Of a stretch of 64,000 nt of DNA, positions 25,650 through 34,549 are shown in pieces. Position 1 is the first letter of the stretch; each line of letters opens with the position of its first letter. This DNA comes from Fibrobacter succinogenes (GTDB lineage Bacteria > Fibrobacterota > Fibrobacteria > Fibrobacterales > Fibrobacteraceae). The stretch spans positions 62,001 through 126,000 of the forward strand of contig CADBHQ010000015.1 in NCBI GenBank assembly GCA_902794535.1, in the 5' to 3' direction. The notes beneath the pieces are model-generated. The model was not told the origin of the DNA and did not search any database. It was given only the letters and a program-made list of their open reading frames with translations. The position numbers and the translations under genes were made by a program.

Positions 25650-26916
25650 TTAGTCCAGATCTACGATGATGCTCTGGTCACGCTTTGCACCGATCGAAAT
25701 CATACCGATCTTCACACCCACGAGTTCCGCCATGCGGTTCAGGTACTTGCGGGCATTTTCCGGCAGGTCTTCGAGTTTGCGGCACTTGGTGGTATCGCAC
25801 TTCCAACCCGGCATTTCTTCGTAAACCGGCACGCAGCGGCCGACCTTCGAAAGCTGGTTCGGGAAGTTTTCGATCTTTTCACCATCGCATTCGTAGTGAG
25901 TACAAATCTTGATAGAATCGAACGTATCGAGCACGTCGAGCTTGGTAATGGCGAGGTGAGTGAGACCATTCACCACGGCAGCCTTGCGAACCACCGGAGC
26001 GTCGAACCAACCGCAGCGGCGGTTACGGCCCGTGGTAGCACCGTATTCGTTACCAATCTTACGGAGCGTTTCGCCCGTTTCGTCCAAAAGTTCAGTCGGG
26101 AACGGACCGTTACCCACGCGGGTCGTGTAAGCCTTCACGACACCCACCACCTGGTCAATAGCCGTCGGGCCAATGCCTGCGCCGCAGCTTGCATAGCCAG
26201 CGACCGTATTGCTGGAGGTCACGAACGGGTAAGTACCCTGGTCCACGTCGAGAATAGTACCCTGGGCACCTTCGAACACCAAGCGCTTGCCAGCCTTCAC
26301 AGCGGCATAGAGCATAGCGCTCACATCGCGCACGAACGGCTTGATCTTCTGACCGAGTTCGAGGTAGTCCTTGATGACCTGTTCCGGATCAATTTCGGGA
26401 ACATCGTACATCACCTTAAATTCTTCGTTGTGAACCTTGGCCATCGCTTCGACGCGGGGGCGCAGTTCGCGTTCGTCCATCAAGTCGCCCACGCGGACAC
26501 CGATACGGTTCACCTTGTCGCTATAGCAGGGGCCAATGCCGCGGCCCGTGGTGCCGATTGCACCCTTACCGGCCTTCTTTTCCTTGGCCTTGTCGAGGGT
26601 AGAATGGTACGGGAGCACCACGTGTGCGTTGTCGGCAATGAACAGGCGACCTTCCGGGTTGATACCCTTGGTGTGCAAGTCGGCGATTTCTGCCAAAGTC
26701 TGCACCGGGTCAAGCACCACGCCGTTACCGATTACGCAAATCTTGTCATCATGCATAATGCCCGAGGGAATCAGGTGGAACACGAACTTCTTGTCGCCCA
26801 CTTCCACGGTATGGCCTGCATTGGCGCCGCCCTGGAAACGCACGATGTAGAAAATCAACAACCTTGGCCTTGCCTTCGTCACCCCACTGGGAACCGATTA
26901 CAACACGATTTGCCAT
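25650..26916 (-). CDS. purA: Adenylosuccinate synthetase, reading frame broken near the N-terminus
   Basis: Makes adenylosuccinate from IMP, aspartate and GTP (AMP synthesis). The main frame (25650 to about 26850) encodes VRFQGGANAGHTVEVGDKK onward to the normal C-terminus. The genuine start is the ATG at 26916, with AAGGA upstream, which reads ANRVVIGSQWGDEGKAKVVDF, the family's GTP/IMP loop, but in a different frame. The two frames meet near 26850. Compared with the usual VD-(7 residues)-YVVR spacing, about 17 nt are missing at the junction. A lone ORF starting at 26882 would lack the catalytic GDEGK loop. Because the gene is normally needed, a sequence error or a recent deletion is likely. 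Everything downstream of the break looks intact. Confidence 0.88.
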
Positions 26917-27162: not shown

Positions 27163-29826
27163 ATGAAGAAGAAATTTCTACTCGTATCGACACTCATTTG
27201 CATGCCGGTTTTCTTCGGCTGTCTTGAAGAAACAAGTCAGGTTTCCGAACCCGAACCGGAACAAGAACAGGAACCGTTTTACTGTGTAACGGAACCTTTG
27301 CAAGACTTAAGCGGGCTTAAGGTTATTTGCGGCGGTGACTCTGTCGGCATTGTCCAGAACGGAAAAGACGGCAAGGACGGTCTCGACGGCATCGACGGAA
27401 AAGATGGCGAAAAGGGTGAAAAAGGTGATAAAGGCAATGACGGTAAAGACGGCGTCAATGGTAAGGACGGCGTAGACGGTAAAGATGGCAAGGACGGAAC
27501 CTCCTGCTATATCGCCGAAAATGCAAAAATTGACAGTTTTGACATTTACTGCGGCGACGAAAAAGTTGGCGAACTGCACAACGGTAAAGACGGTGCAGAC
27601 GGCAAAGATGGCGCCAATGGTAAAGATGGCGTAAACGGCAAGGATGGCACCAATGGCAAGGATGGTAAGGATGGAGCCTCCTGCACAGTCAAGGTCAACG
27701 CCGAAAACAACGGTTACGACATTTACTGTGGTGGCGAAAAGGCCGGCGAACTCCACAACGGAAAGGACGGCGCAAACGGAAAAGATGGTACCAACGGTAA
27801 AGATGGTAACGACGGCAAGGACGGTAAGGATGGCGCCTCTTGCACCGTAAAGCAAAACAACGACATCAATGGTTTCGACATCTTCTGTGGCAACGAAAAG
27901 GTCGGCGAACTCCATAATGGAGCCGACGGCAAGGACGGCGCTAACGGAAAGGATGGAACCAATGGTAAAGACGGCAACGATGGCAAAGACGGTAAAGATG
28001 GAGCCTCTTGCTACACTGTTGAAAACACCGAAGGCAATGGTTACGATGTCTACTGTGGCGACGAAAAGGTCGGCACGCTCCGCAATGGAGCCAACGGCAA
28101 AGACGGTGCAAACGGTAAGGACGGTACCAATGGTAAAGATGGTAACGACGGCAAGGATGGTAAGGATGGCGTCTCTTGCTATGTAGCCGAAAATCTTGAA
28201 ATCAATGGCTTTGACGTTTACTGTGGCAACGTAAAGGTTGGCGAACTCAAGAATGGCGCCGATGGTAAAGATGGTACCGATGGCAAGGATGGTATCGACG
28301 GTAAGGACGGAAAGGATGGCGTCGATGGCAAGGATGGTAAAGACGGAACCTCTTGCTCTGTCGTAAAGAACGACAAGATCAACGGATACGAAGTTTACTG
28401 CGGCAACGAAAAGATTGGCGAACTTTACAACGGTAAAGACGGCAAGGACGGAGCCGACGGAAAAGATGGTACTGATGGCAAGGATGGCAACAACGGCATT
28501 GATGGTAAGGATGGTACTTCTTGCCGCGTCGAAGCCAACGATGACATCAATGGCTACGATGTCTACTGCGGTAAAGAAAAGGTCGGCGAAATTCGCAATG
28601 GCGAAAAGGGCGCCGACGGCAAGGACGGTAAAGACGGAACCGACGGCAAGGATGGTAACGATGGTAAGGACGGAAATTCTTGCCGTGTCGAAGCTAACGA
28701 CGACATCAATGGTTTCGATGTCTACTGTGGCGAATTCAAGGTCGGCGAACTCCGCAACGGCGAAAAGGGTGCTGACGGCAAGGACGGCGCCAATGGTAAA
28801 GACGGCAATGATGGTAAGGATGGCAACGACGGTAAGGACGGAACTTCCTGCCGCATCGAAGAGAACCTGACCAACAACGGCTACGACATCTTCTGCGGCA
28901 GCATCAAGGTCGGCGAACTCAAGAACGGCGAAAACGGCAAGGATGGCGCCGATGGTAAAGATGGTACCGATGGCAAGGATGGAAAAGATGGAAAGGATGG
29001 TCAGGACGGAAAAGACGGCAAAGATGGTAAGGACGGCATTCAGCCCCTTAGCGCCGAATGCAGGGCCCTCCGCTCTACCACCGACCAATTCTCTTCGATC
29101 TACGACGTATTCGGTTGTCTCCGCCCCACTGAAAAGGCGACCTTCATTCTCCGCCACGCCGCCCGCCCCAGCGACAAGTATGGACCGAACGACCCGCTGA
29201 ACGAAACGGGCATGCAACAGTGCGCCACCGTCGGCAACAGACTTAAAGAAATGAACCTCGACGATTTCTCTTACATGCACACCTATTACTACCGTGCCAA
29301 GCAATCCGCATGGATTATCGGCAACAACAAGGGTCAATACATGGGCGATAGCAGCACCTGGTTTGGCGAAACCGACAACAGCTTCCAGACCACAAACAAC
29401 GATCTGTTAGAAAAGGTGTACGTCAAGAACGAAGGCAAACGCAGTTCCTGCAAATCTGGTTGGGGTGGATTCGCAAAAGCCGCCTACAGAGAATATGACA
29501 ACGACAACCAGAGAAACAATTGCGAAGCCGCCTTCTACAACATTGACAGCATTGTTGACGTTGTTGTTCAAAGACACTTCACCTACGACAAGATGAAACC
29601 GGGTGTTACCCTAGCCATTTCGCACGACCAGTTCCTCGCCCCGTTCGTCATCTCCATCAGCAAGCGCAAGATTCATGGCGACAATGGACGCGACTTGCGT
29701 TACCACAAGTACTCCAACGATCAGCATTGGATCAACTACCTCTCCGGTGTAGCCATCATCACGGATCCTGACGACAACATCAGAATCATCCCAGTCACAG
29801 CACTCGACAAGGGATTCTTGCAGTAA
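27163..29826 (+). CDS. Collagen-like repeat lipoprotein with C-terminal histidine phosphatase domain
   Basis: An 887-aa lipoprotein (lipobox FFGC, Cys20). Residues about 40-630 contain ten modules of roughly 50-60 aa, each made of a small two-cysteine unit (pattern SC....N..INGYDVYCG..KVGELRNG) and a Gly-x-x collagen-like run rich in GKDG, GADG and GTNG. The C-terminal part (about 655-887) is a histidine-phosphatase-superfamily domain: RHAARP with His665, GPNDPLNETGMQQC, and a second His821 in AISHDQF. A collagen triple-helix stalk presenting a phosphatase-fold head on the cell surface is the natural reading. The ATG at 27163 has AGGGAG upstream; an earlier in-frame start at 27070 has neither ribosome site nor signal peptide. 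A terminator follows. Confidence 0.85.
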   Translation: MKKKFLLVSTLICMPVFFGCLEETSQVSEPEPEQEQEPFYCVTEPLQDLSGLKVICGGDSVGIVQNGKDGKDGLDGIDGKDGEKGEKGDKGNDGKDGVNGKDGVDGKDGKDGTSCYIAENAKIDSFDIYCGDEKVGELHNGKDGADGKDGANGKDGVNGKDGTNGKDGKDGASCTVKVNAENNGYDIYCGGEKAGELHNGKDGANGKDGTNGKDGNDGKDGKDGASCTVKQNNDINGFDIFCGNEKVGELHNGADGKDGANGKDGTNGKDGNDGKDGKDGASCYTVENTEGNGYDVYCGDEKVGTLRNGANGKDGANGKDGTNGKDGNDGKDGKDGVSCYVAENLEINGFDVYCGNVKVGELKNGADGKDGTDGKDGIDGKDGKDGVDGKDGKDGTSCSVVKNDKINGYEVYCGNEKIGELYNGKDGKDGADGKDGTDGKDGNNGIDGKDGTSCRVEANDDINGYDVYCGKEKVGEIRNGEKGADGKDGKDGTDGKDGNDGKDGNSCRVEANDDINGFDVYCGEFKVGELRNGEKGADGKDGANGKDGNDGKDGNDGKDGTSCRIEENLTNNGYDIFCGSIKVGELKNGENGKDGADGKDGTDGKDGKDGKDGQDGKDGKDGKDGIQPLSAECRALRSTTDQFSSIYDVFGCLRPTEKATFILRHAARPSDKYGPNDPLNETGMQQCATVGNRLKEMNLDDFSYMHTYYYRAKQSAWIIGNNKGQYMGDSSTWFGETDNSFQTTNNDLLEKVYVKNEGKRSSCKSGWGGFAKAAYREYDNDNQRNNCEAAFYNIDSIVDVVVQRHFTYDKMKPGVTLAISHDQFLAPFVISISKRKIHGDNGRDLRYHKYSNDQHWINYLSGVAIITDPDDNIRIIPVTALDKGFLQ
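27360..29040 (+). repeat. Tandem collagen-like/Cys-module coding repeats
   Basis: Ten related units of about 160-180 bp encode GKDG-type runs plus a two-cysteine module. Synonymous codon changes between units (GGT/GGC, AAG/AAA, GAC/GAT) show they are diverged rather than identical, but the block is long enough to invite copy-number change or assembly collapse. Confidence 0.85.
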
Positions 29827-29842
29827 GCAATAATGCGTAATA

Positions 29843-29878
29843 CAAAAGAGACCAACCTTCGGGTTGGCCTCTTTTTTT
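29843..29878 (+). terminator. Terminator after the collagen-like gene
   Basis: AAAGAGACCAACC, a TTCG tetraloop, then GGTTGGCCTCTTT (one A-C mismatch) running into T residues. Confidence 0.88.
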
Positions 29879-29882
29879 CCAT

Positions 29883-32459
29883 TTATTTTTCCAAGCTTTT
29901 TATCAATGAATCCAGCCGCGCAGACAAGTGTTCTGCGCCTGCAGCGCACAAGTGGTCATAATCGTTTGCCATAGCATTCGTATAGTCATGTGCTCCAAAC
30001 TTATTTTCATCCATCAATATAAAATGCGGATACACGCTGGCCAACGAATCAAAGAACGCTATTATTTCCTTTGCAACACTTCTGCGTACTCCATATCGGC
30101 CAAAACTACCTGTTTTTGCATACTTGGGAGATTGCGGATAAACCAAGCCAATTATTTTAAATCCCTTGTTTTGTGTACTATCAATAAATGCTGTCAAGCT
30201 ATCAATACTTTCCGCAAGGTTTTTCTCTTCATTCCCCGACAAAATCGAATCTCCCGAAGCTCGAATCTCTGGGCCCCAGCCATTCGATAGCATTTTCAGA
30301 AAGCCATGGGTATTGACAAAGTTCAACGAGTCTTCGCTAGAATAGCAAACATTCGCATCTACGACTACTTCAAAGTTCTCAGGCACACCAGCCTTCCAAA
30401 AACCATGATTCTTGTCATAAATATATCCTGGAGCCTGTTTAAAAAATTTTCGTTCCCTCACTGCAATGTCATTTTTCATTAAATCAGGAGATATCTCCAC
30501 AATCAAATATTTAAGCCCATGCGCATGCGGTACTACATAATTGTCAAGCAAATAAAGTTCCGTCCACACATCTCCACCAACATACCCCAAATTTAAGGAA
30601 GGCATCGGAATCAGCGCAGGGTCAAAGCCTCTCTCAGCACGCGAAGTTCCGACAGCTATCATCTTCAAGGTATCCCGCATATCCCAAAACATGCGCATTT
30701 TTAAAGCAACAGACTTTTCTCCCGCCTGCAAAATAGGATCCCAATACATGCCAGCACTATCTAAGTCCAAGTATTCGTTTTCAAAAAACACCTTCGGCAT
30801 CACCCATAAACTCGGATGCCACAATTCATTTCCTTCAGCAAGTTCAATCATGCTAGAATCAAGAACATTCACCAGCACCAATTTTGCATGTTCACCACGT
30901 GCATTCACAAGCGTCGCAACCGACCAATTCTCGCGGCCAGCCCATTCGGAATGGTCAAAAGAATATCCCTTGGGCGCAGGAATAGCACGAATCAATTTTC
31001 CACTGCTGTCAGCAACAAGCAAGCGTTCATGAACGCCATACTTTTCGCTAGCAAATTTTCTTCCTGTAGAACCGCCAAAATCCAAAAAGAGCACTTGTTT
31101 CAAGCCGTCTTTCGAAAGCGACGCATTGCAAGCCTGTTCCCCATTGTACCAAATTTCATCTTTTCCGTTTGCATGCACACGTAGTTTACGTGCACCCGAC
31201 ACCGCCAAATTTCCGCCTTTTTCAAAACCGCTATGGTAAGCTCCATTTAAAACTTTCTTTGGCTTTCCGAATTTTCCATTTGAAAAAGGCACCATCCATG
31301 TTGCATGCGCAAAGAACTCTGCATCGTCACTATTATCACCAGCTCCATCTACATACACAATTGAAGTATCGCCATTTGAGTCTACATGCCAACGGGGTAT
31401 CGCCGCATTTTTCACATCCAGTTTTACAAGTTCACTTCCATTCACATCCAAATTTCTCACATACACCGAAGACTCACCATTAACGCCCTCTATTCCCGTA
31501 CAGAAAGCGACCTTCATGCCGTCCGGTGAAATTTCTGGATGAAACACGGGAATGCTATCGTAGATTTCAACAACATTCGCAGTTCCCCCACTGAAATCGA
31601 CATACATTAAATTATCAGTCTCACCATTTCTAAACACAAGCTTTGCATGCCTCGTTCCAATTTTTTCTTGAATATCTGACGAATAAGCTTTCATTTTCAC
31701 AAAACTCGTTTCAGACTTACCACGTCCATTCATCCACACCGCATTCGGAATTCGTCCAAACGCCAAACGAAAACCCATGTACGACAAAAGAGTCGATGCA
31801 GTCACAGGATAAACGTCACCGCGATTATCAAGGTTCATTTCCGCAATCGAATTAGCAATCGACCCACCCTTAACAACCTTTTCACGCAACGAATTACCTG
31901 TAGGTGTGCCCACATAATTTTCTACAACCGTATCCCTAAAATCACCAAGCCAGTCATTTGTCATCTCAAGGGCATTACCAGCAAAATCACAGAAGCCAAT
32001 CGAATCCGGCAAAGCACAAACCGCTTGAAGTGTAAAATTCGAATTTGCAGAATTCCAGCTATTCACTCCAGGATTCCATGTCTGCGACGCAGCCATCACC
32101 CATTCCGCTTCGGTCGGCAACCGAAATCCGTCTACGTCAGTACGAGTCCCTAGACCTTCCAAATTCACGCAACGACCATCCGAGGTAAACATGGGCTTAT
32201 GATACGCATAAACCGTATCGTAGCCATTCGCCTTACTATAAGCATTCGCAAAAAGAACGGCCTCAAAATACGACACATCAGACACGGGCAAACCACGACC
32301 ACAATTCAAACCAAAATACCAGTCTTCGTTTCGGGATATTTCTTTATACTCGTCGCAAGTCACTTCGTGAATTCCGAGCGAATACTCGTAATTCAGATTC
32401 ACGCGCATTTTCCCGTCACCCAACAAAACAGACGCCCCATTCGGCACGATACGCATCAT
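29883..32459 (-). CDS. TIGR02171-like protein (FGE + propeller + SGNH-like), separated from its signal peptide by a frameshift
   Basis: An 858-aa ORF of the large Fibrobacter paralogous family TIGR02171. Residues 1-235 form an FGE-like domain (GIHEVTCDEY, GLPVSDVSYFEAVLFANAY, RLPTEAEWV, GFCDFAGNALEMTNDW, VVKGGSIAN, YMGFRLAF). Residues about 260-560 look like a TolB/WD40-type propeller (PEISPDGMKVAFCTG). The C-terminal 280 residues contain VGTSRAERGFDPALIP and NDYDHLCAAGAEHL, resembling SGNH-hydrolase blocks. Family members are lipoproteins, but this ORF starts cytoplasmic-like at MMRIVPNG. The lipoprotein signal is encoded just upstream in another frame (32456-32584). One extra A would fuse them. 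Function unknown. Confidence 0.8.
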   Translation of the reverse strand: MMRIVPNGASVLLGDGKMRVNLNYEYSLGIHEVTCDEYKEISRNEDWYFGLNCGRGLPVSDVSYFEAVLFANAYSKANGYDTVYAYHKPMFTSDGRCVNLEGLGTRTDVDGFRLPTEAEWVMAASQTWNPGVNSWNSANSNFTLQAVCALPDSIGFCDFAGNALEMTNDWLGDFRDTVVENYVGTPTGNSLREKVVKGGSIANSIAEMNLDNRGDVYPVTASTLLSYMGFRLAFGRIPNAVWMNGRGKSETSFVKMKAYSSDIQEKIGTRHAKLVFRNGETDNLMYVDFSGGTANVVEIYDSIPVFHPEISPDGMKVAFCTGIEGVNGESSVYVRNLDVNGSELVKLDVKNAAIPRWHVDSNGDTSIVYVDGAGDNSDDAEFFAHATWMVPFSNGKFGKPKKVLNGAYHSGFEKGGNLAVSGARKLRVHANGKDEIWYNGEQACNASLSKDGLKQVLFLDFGGSTGRKFASEKYGVHERLLVADSSGKLIRAIPAPKGYSFDHSEWAGRENWSVATLVNARGEHAKLVLVNVLDSSMIELAEGNELWHPSLWVMPKVFFENEYLDLDSAGMYWDPILQAGEKSVALKMRMFWDMRDTLKMIAVGTSRAERGFDPALIPMPSLNLGYVGGDVWTELYLLDNYVVPHAHGLKYLIVEISPDLMKNDIAVRERKFFKQAPGYIYDKNHGFWKAGVPENFEVVVDANVCYSSEDSLNFVNTHGFLKMLSNGWGPEIRASGDSILSGNEEKNLAESIDSLTAFIDSTQNKGFKIIGLVYPQSPKYAKTGSFGRYGVRRSVAKEIIAFFDSLASVYPHFILMDENKFGAHDYTNAMANDYDHLCAAGAEHLSARLDSLIKSLEK

Positions 32460-32625: not shown

Positions 32626-33609
32626 TTACGGCACCTCAACGCTGTCGAGAATCTTCTGCACGACAGTTTCGGCAGAGACTTCTTCTGCTTCGGCCTCGTA
32701 GCTCAAGATAATGCGGTGGCGGAGCACTTCCATCGCAACGGCCTTCACGTCTTCCGGCGTCACGTAGGCGCGACCCTGGATGAACGCATGGGCCTTCGAA
32801 GCCTGGGCAAGGCCGATAGAAGCACGCGGAGAGGCGCCCACTTCCACAAAGCCCACCAGGTCGCTGCGCTTGATGCTGCCCGGATCGCGGGTCGCAAGTA
32901 CAAGATTCACGATGTATTCGCGCACGCGTTCGTCCACATACACCTGCTTCACCAGCTGGCGGGCGGCCAGAATATCTTCCTTCGTGGCGACAGCCTGCGG
33001 CTGGCGGAGCCCCGCACCGGCAACGGCGTCGAGAATCTTCATTTCGTCGGCCTTGTTCGGGTAAGACACCTTCACCTTCAAGAGGAAACGGTCCACCTGA
33101 GCTTCCGGCAGCGGATACGTACCTTCCTGCTCAATCGGGTTCTGCGTGGCAAGCACCAAGAACGGTTCGTCGAGCTTGAACGTCTCGTCACCAATCGTGA
33201 TATGGCGTTCCTGCATGGCTTCGAGCAAGGCGCTCTGCACCTTCGACGGAGCACGGTTAATTTCATCAGCGAGCACCAGGTTCGTAAAGAGCGGGCCCTT
33301 GCGGGTCTCGAACTTCGCTTCCTTCGCGTTGTAAATCGTGGTACCCAGCAAGTCGGCCGGCAACAGGTCGGGCGTGAACTGGATGCGCTTGAAATCCAGC
33401 GAAACGGCATCGGCAAAAGCCTTCACCGCCGTCGTCTTGGCAAGGCCCGGCAGGCCTTCCAGCAGCACGTGACCGTCGGCCAGAATACCCGTCAAAATGC
33501 TTTCCACCAGAGCCTTCTGGCCAATCACCGTCCCTTCCACTTCACGTAGCAAGTTCATGCAAAAAGCGCTCTGCTGTCTAACCTTTTCCGAAAGTTCCTG
33601 AATATCCAT
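32626..33609 (-). CDS. MoxR-family AAA+ ATPase
   Basis: A 327-aa AAA+ chaperone-like ATPase: Walker A LLEGLPGLAKTT, Walker B LADEINRAPSKVQSALLEAMQE, sensor 1 LATQNPIEQEGTYPLPEAQVDRF, and a C-terminal lid with GASPRASIGL. MoxR proteins usually assist a VWA-domain partner in assembling or activating complexes; no VWA gene is adjacent here. The TIGR02171 gene follows after 41 bp, so both may be co-transcribed. GAAGAGG lies about nine bases before the ATG. Confidence 0.92.
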   Translation of the reverse strand: MDIQELSEKVRQQSAFCMNLLREVEGTVIGQKALVESILTGILADGHVLLEGLPGLAKTTAVKAFADAVSLDFKRIQFTPDLLPADLLGTTIYNAKEAKFETRKGPLFTNLVLADEINRAPSKVQSALLEAMQERHITIGDETFKLDEPFLVLATQNPIEQEGTYPLPEAQVDRFLLKVKVSYPNKADEMKILDAVAGAGLRQPQAVATKEDILAARQLVKQVYVDERVREYIVNLVLATRDPGSIKRSDLVGFVEVGASPRASIGLAQASKAHAFIQGRAYVTPEDVKAVAMEVLRHRIILSYEAEAEEVSAETVVQKILDSVEVP

Positions 33610-33787: not shown

Positions 33788-34549
33788 TTAAATTCGTCCT
33801 TTATCTTCGGTAAATGACAATGATTCCTTCTTTGAATGAATCATCCAATCCAGAGATACGGAAAAACGATTCCTATCTTCGCTGATATCTCGCCCATAAC
33901 GAAATTCCAATGAAAAATTCCCATACGAAACATAACCGCCCGCACCCACTTCTGTATAACGAATAGATTTAGGGCTCCCCATACAAGATCCCGTAGGACC
34001 AAAGCCCCCTCCGCAATCTTCTTCTTTCCAATAGGATTCTCGTCCATTTTTAGAAATATGTTCTGTCAATCCAAACCGCAATTTTTCACCTGCATAAAAT
34101 TGCTCTATAGTAGATATACCTCCAGTCCACCCCACTACAGCTGTTTTACCACCTCCCTCATCAACGCGATCAGACAACGGGAGCAAATTACTCCAAGCCA
34201 TCACACCAAAATTTTTCGACACAAAACCCGGTTGCCAAATCGGAGTCAAGCTCTGCAATCCAATTCCTAAAGTAAAATGAGATTTATTGAAATAATGTAT
34301 CGCAGATAAATCAACCGGCCACTCATCCGATTCTATCTCATCATAACCAGACGGCAAATAATCTAAATCCCTTTTTGTTTCATTTACTAAATCGCCCGTA
34401 TACATAGACAATGTCAAAGCAGTTGTTGCAAAGTCTTCTCTATACGAATCCATAAAGGCAGCTGCAGAAGGCGGACGAGTTATAACGCTGCACCCCGCAA
34501 GCAGCAGGGCGCACACCGCCAACACAATCCATAAAATTCCGCGAGTCAT
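33788..34549 (-). CDS. Uncharacterised lipoprotein, possible outer-membrane beta-structure
   Basis: A 253-aa lipoprotein with lipobox LAGC (Cys20). The body alternates short beta-prone stretches (FTLGIGLQSL, VGWTGGISTIEQF, LRFGLTEHI, AGGYVSYGNFSLEFRYGRD, RFSVSLDWMI), as in small outer-membrane barrels, and has two cysteines (CGGGFGPTGSC) that could form a disulfide. I do not recognise the family. No ribosome binding site is obvious before the ATG at 34549. It stands alone between hairpins. Confidence 0.7.
   Translation of the reverse strand: MTRGILWIVLAVCALLLAGCSVITRPPSAAAFMDSYREDFATTALTLSMYTGDLVNETKRDLDYLPSGYDEIESDEWPVDLSAIHYFNKSHFTLGIGLQSLTPIWQPGFVSKNFGVMAWSNLLPLSDRVDEGGGKTAVVGWTGGISTIEQFYAGEKLRFGLTEHISKNGRESYWKEEDCGGGFGPTGSCMGSPKSIRYTEVGAGGYVSYGNFSLEFRYGRDISEDRNRFSVSLDWMIHSKKESLSFTEDKGRI

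Follow-up and report, generated by a model that had tools for sequence, protein, structure and literature searches.

The catalytic quartet of two arginines and two histidines is required across the histidine phosphatase superfamily (PMC10218301). Branch 1 enzymes have a glutamate and no extra active-site arginine, branch 2 enzymes an aspartate together with the extra arginine, and the Sts proteins are known to mix the two, pairing the glutamate with the extra arginine (PMC10218301). Phytases of branch 2 carry the motifs RHGXRXP and HD, with the aspartate as proton donor (PMC3669009). Bacterial collagen-like proteins, e.g. Scl1/Scl2, Lcl (PMC11162425), and Bucl (PMC4565658), consist of a long Gly-X-Y region and a non-collagen domain at one end. 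Fibrobacter is a genus of gut bacteria that digest plant fiber. Here, we describe a gene of Fibrobacter succinogenes in which a collagen-like stalk and a predicted histidine phosphatase are joined in one open frame. It lies in a stretch of 64,000 nucleotides (the window) of contig CADBHQ010000015.1, taken from an assembly of 3.3 Mb in 69 contigs. The gene (27163-29826, forward strand) starts with an ATG at 27163 preceded by a ribosome-binding-like GGGAG, ends with the stop codon at 29824-29826, and encodes 887 amino acids (aa).

Our reading is that the product is an outer-membrane lipoprotein of Fibrobacter that presents a predicted histidine phosphatase at the tip of a collagen-like stalk, to which we assign a probability of roughly 0.7. 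An original prediction, made from the DNA letters, had proposed such an arrangement; the analysis supported its stalk, head, and fusion and a likely lipoprotein signal, but did not support its trimerization knot. At the N-terminus, a signal peptide (27163-27222, VFFG-C) with a likely lipidation site at Cys20 is directly followed by an acidic Glu/Pro tether (aa 21-40). Several homologues possess better, canonical lipoboxes of the pattern L-x-G-C (e.g. L-T-G-C in L012 and L-N-G-C in L011), and the 887-aa product is judged from its sequence to be a likely lipoprotein.

Fold and active site of the head

The head comprises about 260 residues (aa 625-887; 29035-29823). AlphaFold modeled it with a predicted local distance difference test score (pLDDT) of 95.7 and a predicted template-modeling score (pTM) of 0.93. 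Together with Foldseek, the model identified the alpha/beta fold of the superfamily: 214 PDB matches were obtained at E ≤ 0.001, the top ones all being histidine phosphatases, and the leading ones were the branch 1 enzymes RosC (E = 5.5 × 10−7), PGAM5, PspA, and others (E about 5 × 10−7, probability 1.0). A profile of the head family likewise matched phosphoglycerate-mutase-like phosphatases and mutases in the PDB (best E = 4.7 × 10−8). His_Phos_1 (PF00300) was matched by all 37 family heads (best 8.6 × 10−14), and the paralogues L005 (45.3 bits) and L002 (22.2 bits) exceeded its gathering threshold of 21.7 bits. On the basis of the model, the head thus looks like a histidine phosphatase and an apparent enzyme, which bears out the original assignment at the level of a predicted fold.

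Invariant in the 37 aligned heads were (i) R664, H665, and R668 of the RHAAR motif (29152-29166), with H665 as the putative nucleophile; (ii) R711 (29293-29295), the second arginine of the catalytic quartet; and (iii) H821 and D822 (29623-29628), the second catalytic histidine and a candidate proton-donor aspartate. RHxxR together with HD was found in 72 of 72 distinct heads. The quartet is accordingly made up of R664, H665, R711, and H821; both histidines and the RHAARP string are present as claimed beforehand, and the concern that essential Arg/His residues might be missing was dispelled by their invariance.

D822 is the only invariant acid in the alignment of the 37 heads. By motif alignment, the family has the HD with an aspartate at the donor position and the extra arginine of RHGxRxP; the proline of that motif, which the window head has, is not shared by the family. 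By its position, R668 would be the extra arginine of the motif. None of the 37 members matched the branch 2 profile PF00328 significantly, with one reaching E = 0.09. Judging by sequence, the active site looks mixed, a branch-1-like fold and sequence being combined with RHxxR and HD of the branch 2 type. Membership in the phytases, whose RHxxR/HD pattern fits, is not claimed, as the branch 2 profile match is missing.

Ratios of nonsynonymous to synonymous substitution rates (dN/dS) for the head were 0.036 relative to a close strain (L075), 0.12-0.13 relative to L009 and L010 (79-85% identity), and 0.04-0.15 across close orthologues, indicating purifying selection on the head. The eight nearest homologues keep four cysteines of the head, which is what one would expect of a protein outside the cytoplasm.

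Conservation of the catalytic residues also bears on a different function, in which the phosphatase fold of the head would serve for binding and the protein would attach to plant fiber or other cells as a collagen-like adhesin, comparable to Lcl and Scl. Such a role would suit the FISUMP heads that are borne by the same type of stalk in the genus, the strong variation of the locus between conserved neighbors, and the frequent function of bacterial collagen-like proteins as adhesins (Lcl, PMC11162425). A head that only binds should have lost some catalytic residues, however, and the Arg/His/Asp set is invariant in heads down to 25-30% identity, so that we consider an adhesin improbable and favor a phosphatase.

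The collagen-like stalk and its cysteine units

The stalk (27361-29043) consists of ten Gly-X-Y runs with nine standard 26-aa cysteine units between them. Each run comprises 9-16 triplets, giving 109 in total, compared with a mean of 5 and a maximum of 27 in 1000 composition shuffles of the stalk. Pfam Collagen (PF01391) matched the stalk in ten stretches (E = 3 × 10−48, 161.9 bits versus a cut-off of 27.2), and the long uninterrupted Gly-X-Y repeats expected of a bacterial collagen-like protein are present. Membership in the SclA/SclB adhesins was rejected: scores with the NCBIfam models were 147.5 versus 325 and 42.3 versus 400 bits, and no LPXTG occurs in the 887-aa sequence. An antisense open frame of 676 aa (27307-29337, reverse strand) overlies the stalk; it was judged a composition artefact arising from the repeated codons of GKDG.

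Ten C-x14-C units were found (aa 41-56, 115-130, 174-189, 227-242, 283-298, 339-354, 398-413, 454-469, 507-522, and 563-578), as compared with at most 4 such spacings in 1000 composition shuffles. The ten two-cysteine units and the collagen runs of the original prediction were hence both recovered, far above the shuffled sequences. Units follow one another at 53-59 aa, the first one excepted. This N-terminal unit (aa 41-66, C41-C56; 27283-27360) is of a divergent type, so that the protein has nine standard units plus one, and a similar N-terminal stretch was seen in most complete homologues read. The units begin and finish in phase with the Gly-X-Y triplets.

Several observations weigh against the proposed enzyme-bearing stalked lipoprotein. 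The lipobox, MKKKFLLVSTLICMPVFFG-C20 (V-F-F-G-C20), carries on inspection a Phe at position −3, which is off consensus; the lipid anchor claimed earlier stands as likely, with Cys20 as the probable lipidation site in an atypical box. Foldseek TM-scores (template modeling) of the head were moderate (0.37-0.50 by query length), its score with PF00300, when searched alone, was 20.1 bits and thus below threshold, and no glutamate that could correspond to the catalytic one of branch 1 was invariant among the 37 family heads. Genes for phosphate uptake were not noted among the neighbors examined. Finally, GKD dominates the stalk (55 triplets), and not a single proline occurs in its 109 triplets.

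The last point would suit a stalk that is a monomeric, flexible, acidic Gly-rich spacer, forms no triple helix, and takes its shape from the cysteine units alone. Moreover, Ser-rich linkers replace the collagen under related heads, which means that any spacer may do. Such a spacer would leave unaccounted for the strict Gly-X-Y periodicity across all ten runs, the strong Pfam Collagen match, and the phasing of every cysteine unit with the triplets at both of its ends; we regard it as rather unlikely, though less so than an adhesin, and retain a collagen-like stalk as the preferred description, as had been claimed originally.

As to the cysteine units themselves, both cysteines as well as Gly and Asn positions near the unit end were invariant across 84 different 39-residue units. 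An AlphaFold monomer model from 66 aligned units showed a three-stranded meander (strands 10-15, 20-25, and 28-34) with a core pLDDT of about 90; an example unit with its flanks lies at 28327-28443. Within the first hairpin (strands 10-15 and 20-25), Cys10 and Cys25 oppose each other. In animal collagens, interchain cystine knots are found at the ends of collagen runs, and the two always-conserved cysteines per unit, placed at the ends of such runs, could by analogy form interchain disulfides and thereby a trimerization knot, as the original prediction had suggested. In the monomer model, however, the two residues face each other in one hairpin, the usual site of an intrachain bond, which favors an intrachain disulfide clasp and makes the knot improbable. 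A trimer of the units is possible. A disulfide unit inserted between collagen runs could interest designers of recombinant bacterial collagens.

Taken together, the following sequence of events appears most likely. (i) The protein would be exported by the Sec pathway and lipidated at Cys20, as its N-terminal sequence suggests. (ii) The ten Gly-X-Y runs would form triple helices with two other chains, about 90 nm long if fully helical, as the Pfam match suggests. (iii) The C-x14-C units would interrupt the helix as beta-meanders, a modeled fold, with a disulfide clasp suggested by the strand register, and may serve as rivet, register-setter, or flexible joint. (iv) By analogy with the superfamily, the head would hydrolyze phosphomonoesters, with R664, R668, and R711 holding the phosphate, H665 acting as nucleophile, H821 assisting, and D822 donating the proton. 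(v) More speculatively, the cell might take up the released phosphate or the dephosphorylated nutrient, or a surface phospho-glycan might be trimmed. We infer surface exposure of the head, trimerization, and catalysis, and our guesses for substrates are plant phosphate esters (phytate, for instance), phospho-glycans, and nucleotides. The phytate or phosphosugar named in the original prediction is likewise a guess.

Occurrence and surroundings of the gene

When the contigs of relatives were searched with an 8-row head alignment, related loci were found in Fibrobacter metagenome-assembled genomes, plus one labeled Fibrobacteria bacterium. Collagen runs, cysteine units, and head share a single open frame in 20 or more Fibrobacter genomes, a count made by genome handle in which some of the available loci end inside the head. 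A genome of the same species (G152) carries the fusion in an 859-aa frame. An accidental joining of two genes by a frame error or assembly artefact might be suspected, given that the neighboring purA of the window assembly has a frameshift. The identical fusion in these genomes, near-complete ones and G152 included, rules this out for practical purposes; the doubt whether the fusion would be absent in relatives is thereby removed. In purA itself (25650-26914, reverse strand), the frameshift lies near the 5′ end, where a short stretch of all five compared relatives is missing; it is either a strain variant or an assembly error, and relatives have intact copies.

In the close strain L075, the head is 98% identical and the whole frame shorter, and thus the repeat number varies. 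Among loci whose flanks are sufficiently long, most have the gene next to moxR (32626-33609; 95-100% identical); purA adjoins the gene in the loci that extend so far (L075, L080, L081, L087, and L078/L086, the latter two being one contig). Heads sharing as little as 32-33% identity with that of the window have this neighborhood too, which points to a single orthologous site that changes fast while its flanking genes are conserved. Heads of L009 and L010, compared in 60-base steps, were 96-100% identical in the C-terminal half and 63-87% in the N-terminal half, which suggests recombination within the gene.

Downstream, a hairpin resembling a terminator, with a T run behind it (29852-29867, forward strand), separates the gene from a convergent neighbor; it was found by scan only, and the number of such sites was near the shuffled expectation. 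The convergent gene (29883-32459, reverse strand) encodes 858 aa with an FGE-sulfatase-like domain (PF03781), is 69% (L075) and 52% (L087) identical to products at the same place, and was unmatched in several other loci. A further reverse-strand gene (33788-34549) encodes 253 aa with no Pfam match; its relatives stand in tandem next to moxR, with 30-62% identity (L065 and L071/L083). A phage or plasmid origin of the head was rejected, since IMG/VR contigs and PLSDB plasmids yielded no relative of it at the search sensitivity applied; a viral fold library returned generic histidine phosphatases only.

The head belongs to a larger family. Its profile matched eight times in the genome of the window and 5-10 times in most well-assembled Fibrobacter genomes, and its matches span nine genera of the phylum, of which eight belong to Fibrobacteraceae. 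One weak match (E = 2 × 10−7) occurred outside Fibrobacteraceae, in a genome of another family of the same phylum (G065). These heads are mounted on collagen with cysteine units, on Ser-rich linkers, or on larger other N-terminal regions. A tree of 72 heads placed every clearly collagen-stalked one in a single group of 31 rows (support 94/95), in which Ser-rich linkers are interspersed; within this group, stalks were thus swapped or lost on several occasions. FISUMP heads stand on collagen stalks of this type in three loci (L111, L112, and L114), and hence the genus exchanges stalk and head independently. Two paralogous phosphatase heads with larger N-terminal regions stand in tandem at G000:C17:10398-12684, a pairing seen in many genomes.

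Tentatively, these proteins might be interchangeable, lineage-specific surface tools, in which a phosphatase head of mixed chemistry would be used across collagen, serine-rich, and other stalks, and a trimeric, disulfide-riveted stalk, forming rods of about 100 nm that would extend outward from the cell, across enzyme and FISUMP heads. The original prediction had missed the lineage-specific paralogues on differing stalks, the stalk type shared with FISUMP proteins, and the branch-2-like HD in a branch-1-like fold.

Comparison with known systems

In the open-licence papers searched, we found none on Fibrobacter and histidine phosphatases and none on a collagen-like protein of bacteria with a terminal phosphatase; the three main S85 papers mention neither phosphatase nor collagen. 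Within that literature, this agrees with the expectation that the union had not been described before, the kinds of component being already known.

With branch 1 enzymes (PF00300; RosC, PGAM5, PspA, and PhoE/YhfR), the Fibrobacter protein shares the fold, profile similarity, and the Arg-His-Arg-His set, but it differs by its export signal, its stalk, the lack of a conserved catalytic Glu, and the invariant Asp that follows the second His. The acid phosphatases and phytases of branch 2 (PF00328) resemble it in the extra Arg and the Asp (PMC10218301), yet the head has no significant PF00328 match and its leading Foldseek matches are of branch 1. FISUMP proteins (Fib_succ_major; TIGR02145, PF09603) are similar in that some of them stand on such collagen stalks, but their head domain is unrelated. 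The general layout is shared with Scl1/Scl2, Lcl, and Bucl, and the NCBIfam SclB model gave 147 bits; in contrast to these, the Fibrobacter protein has an apparent enzyme as its head, regular cysteine units inside the stalk, a lipoprotein-type signal instead of LPXTG, and a stalk free of proline.
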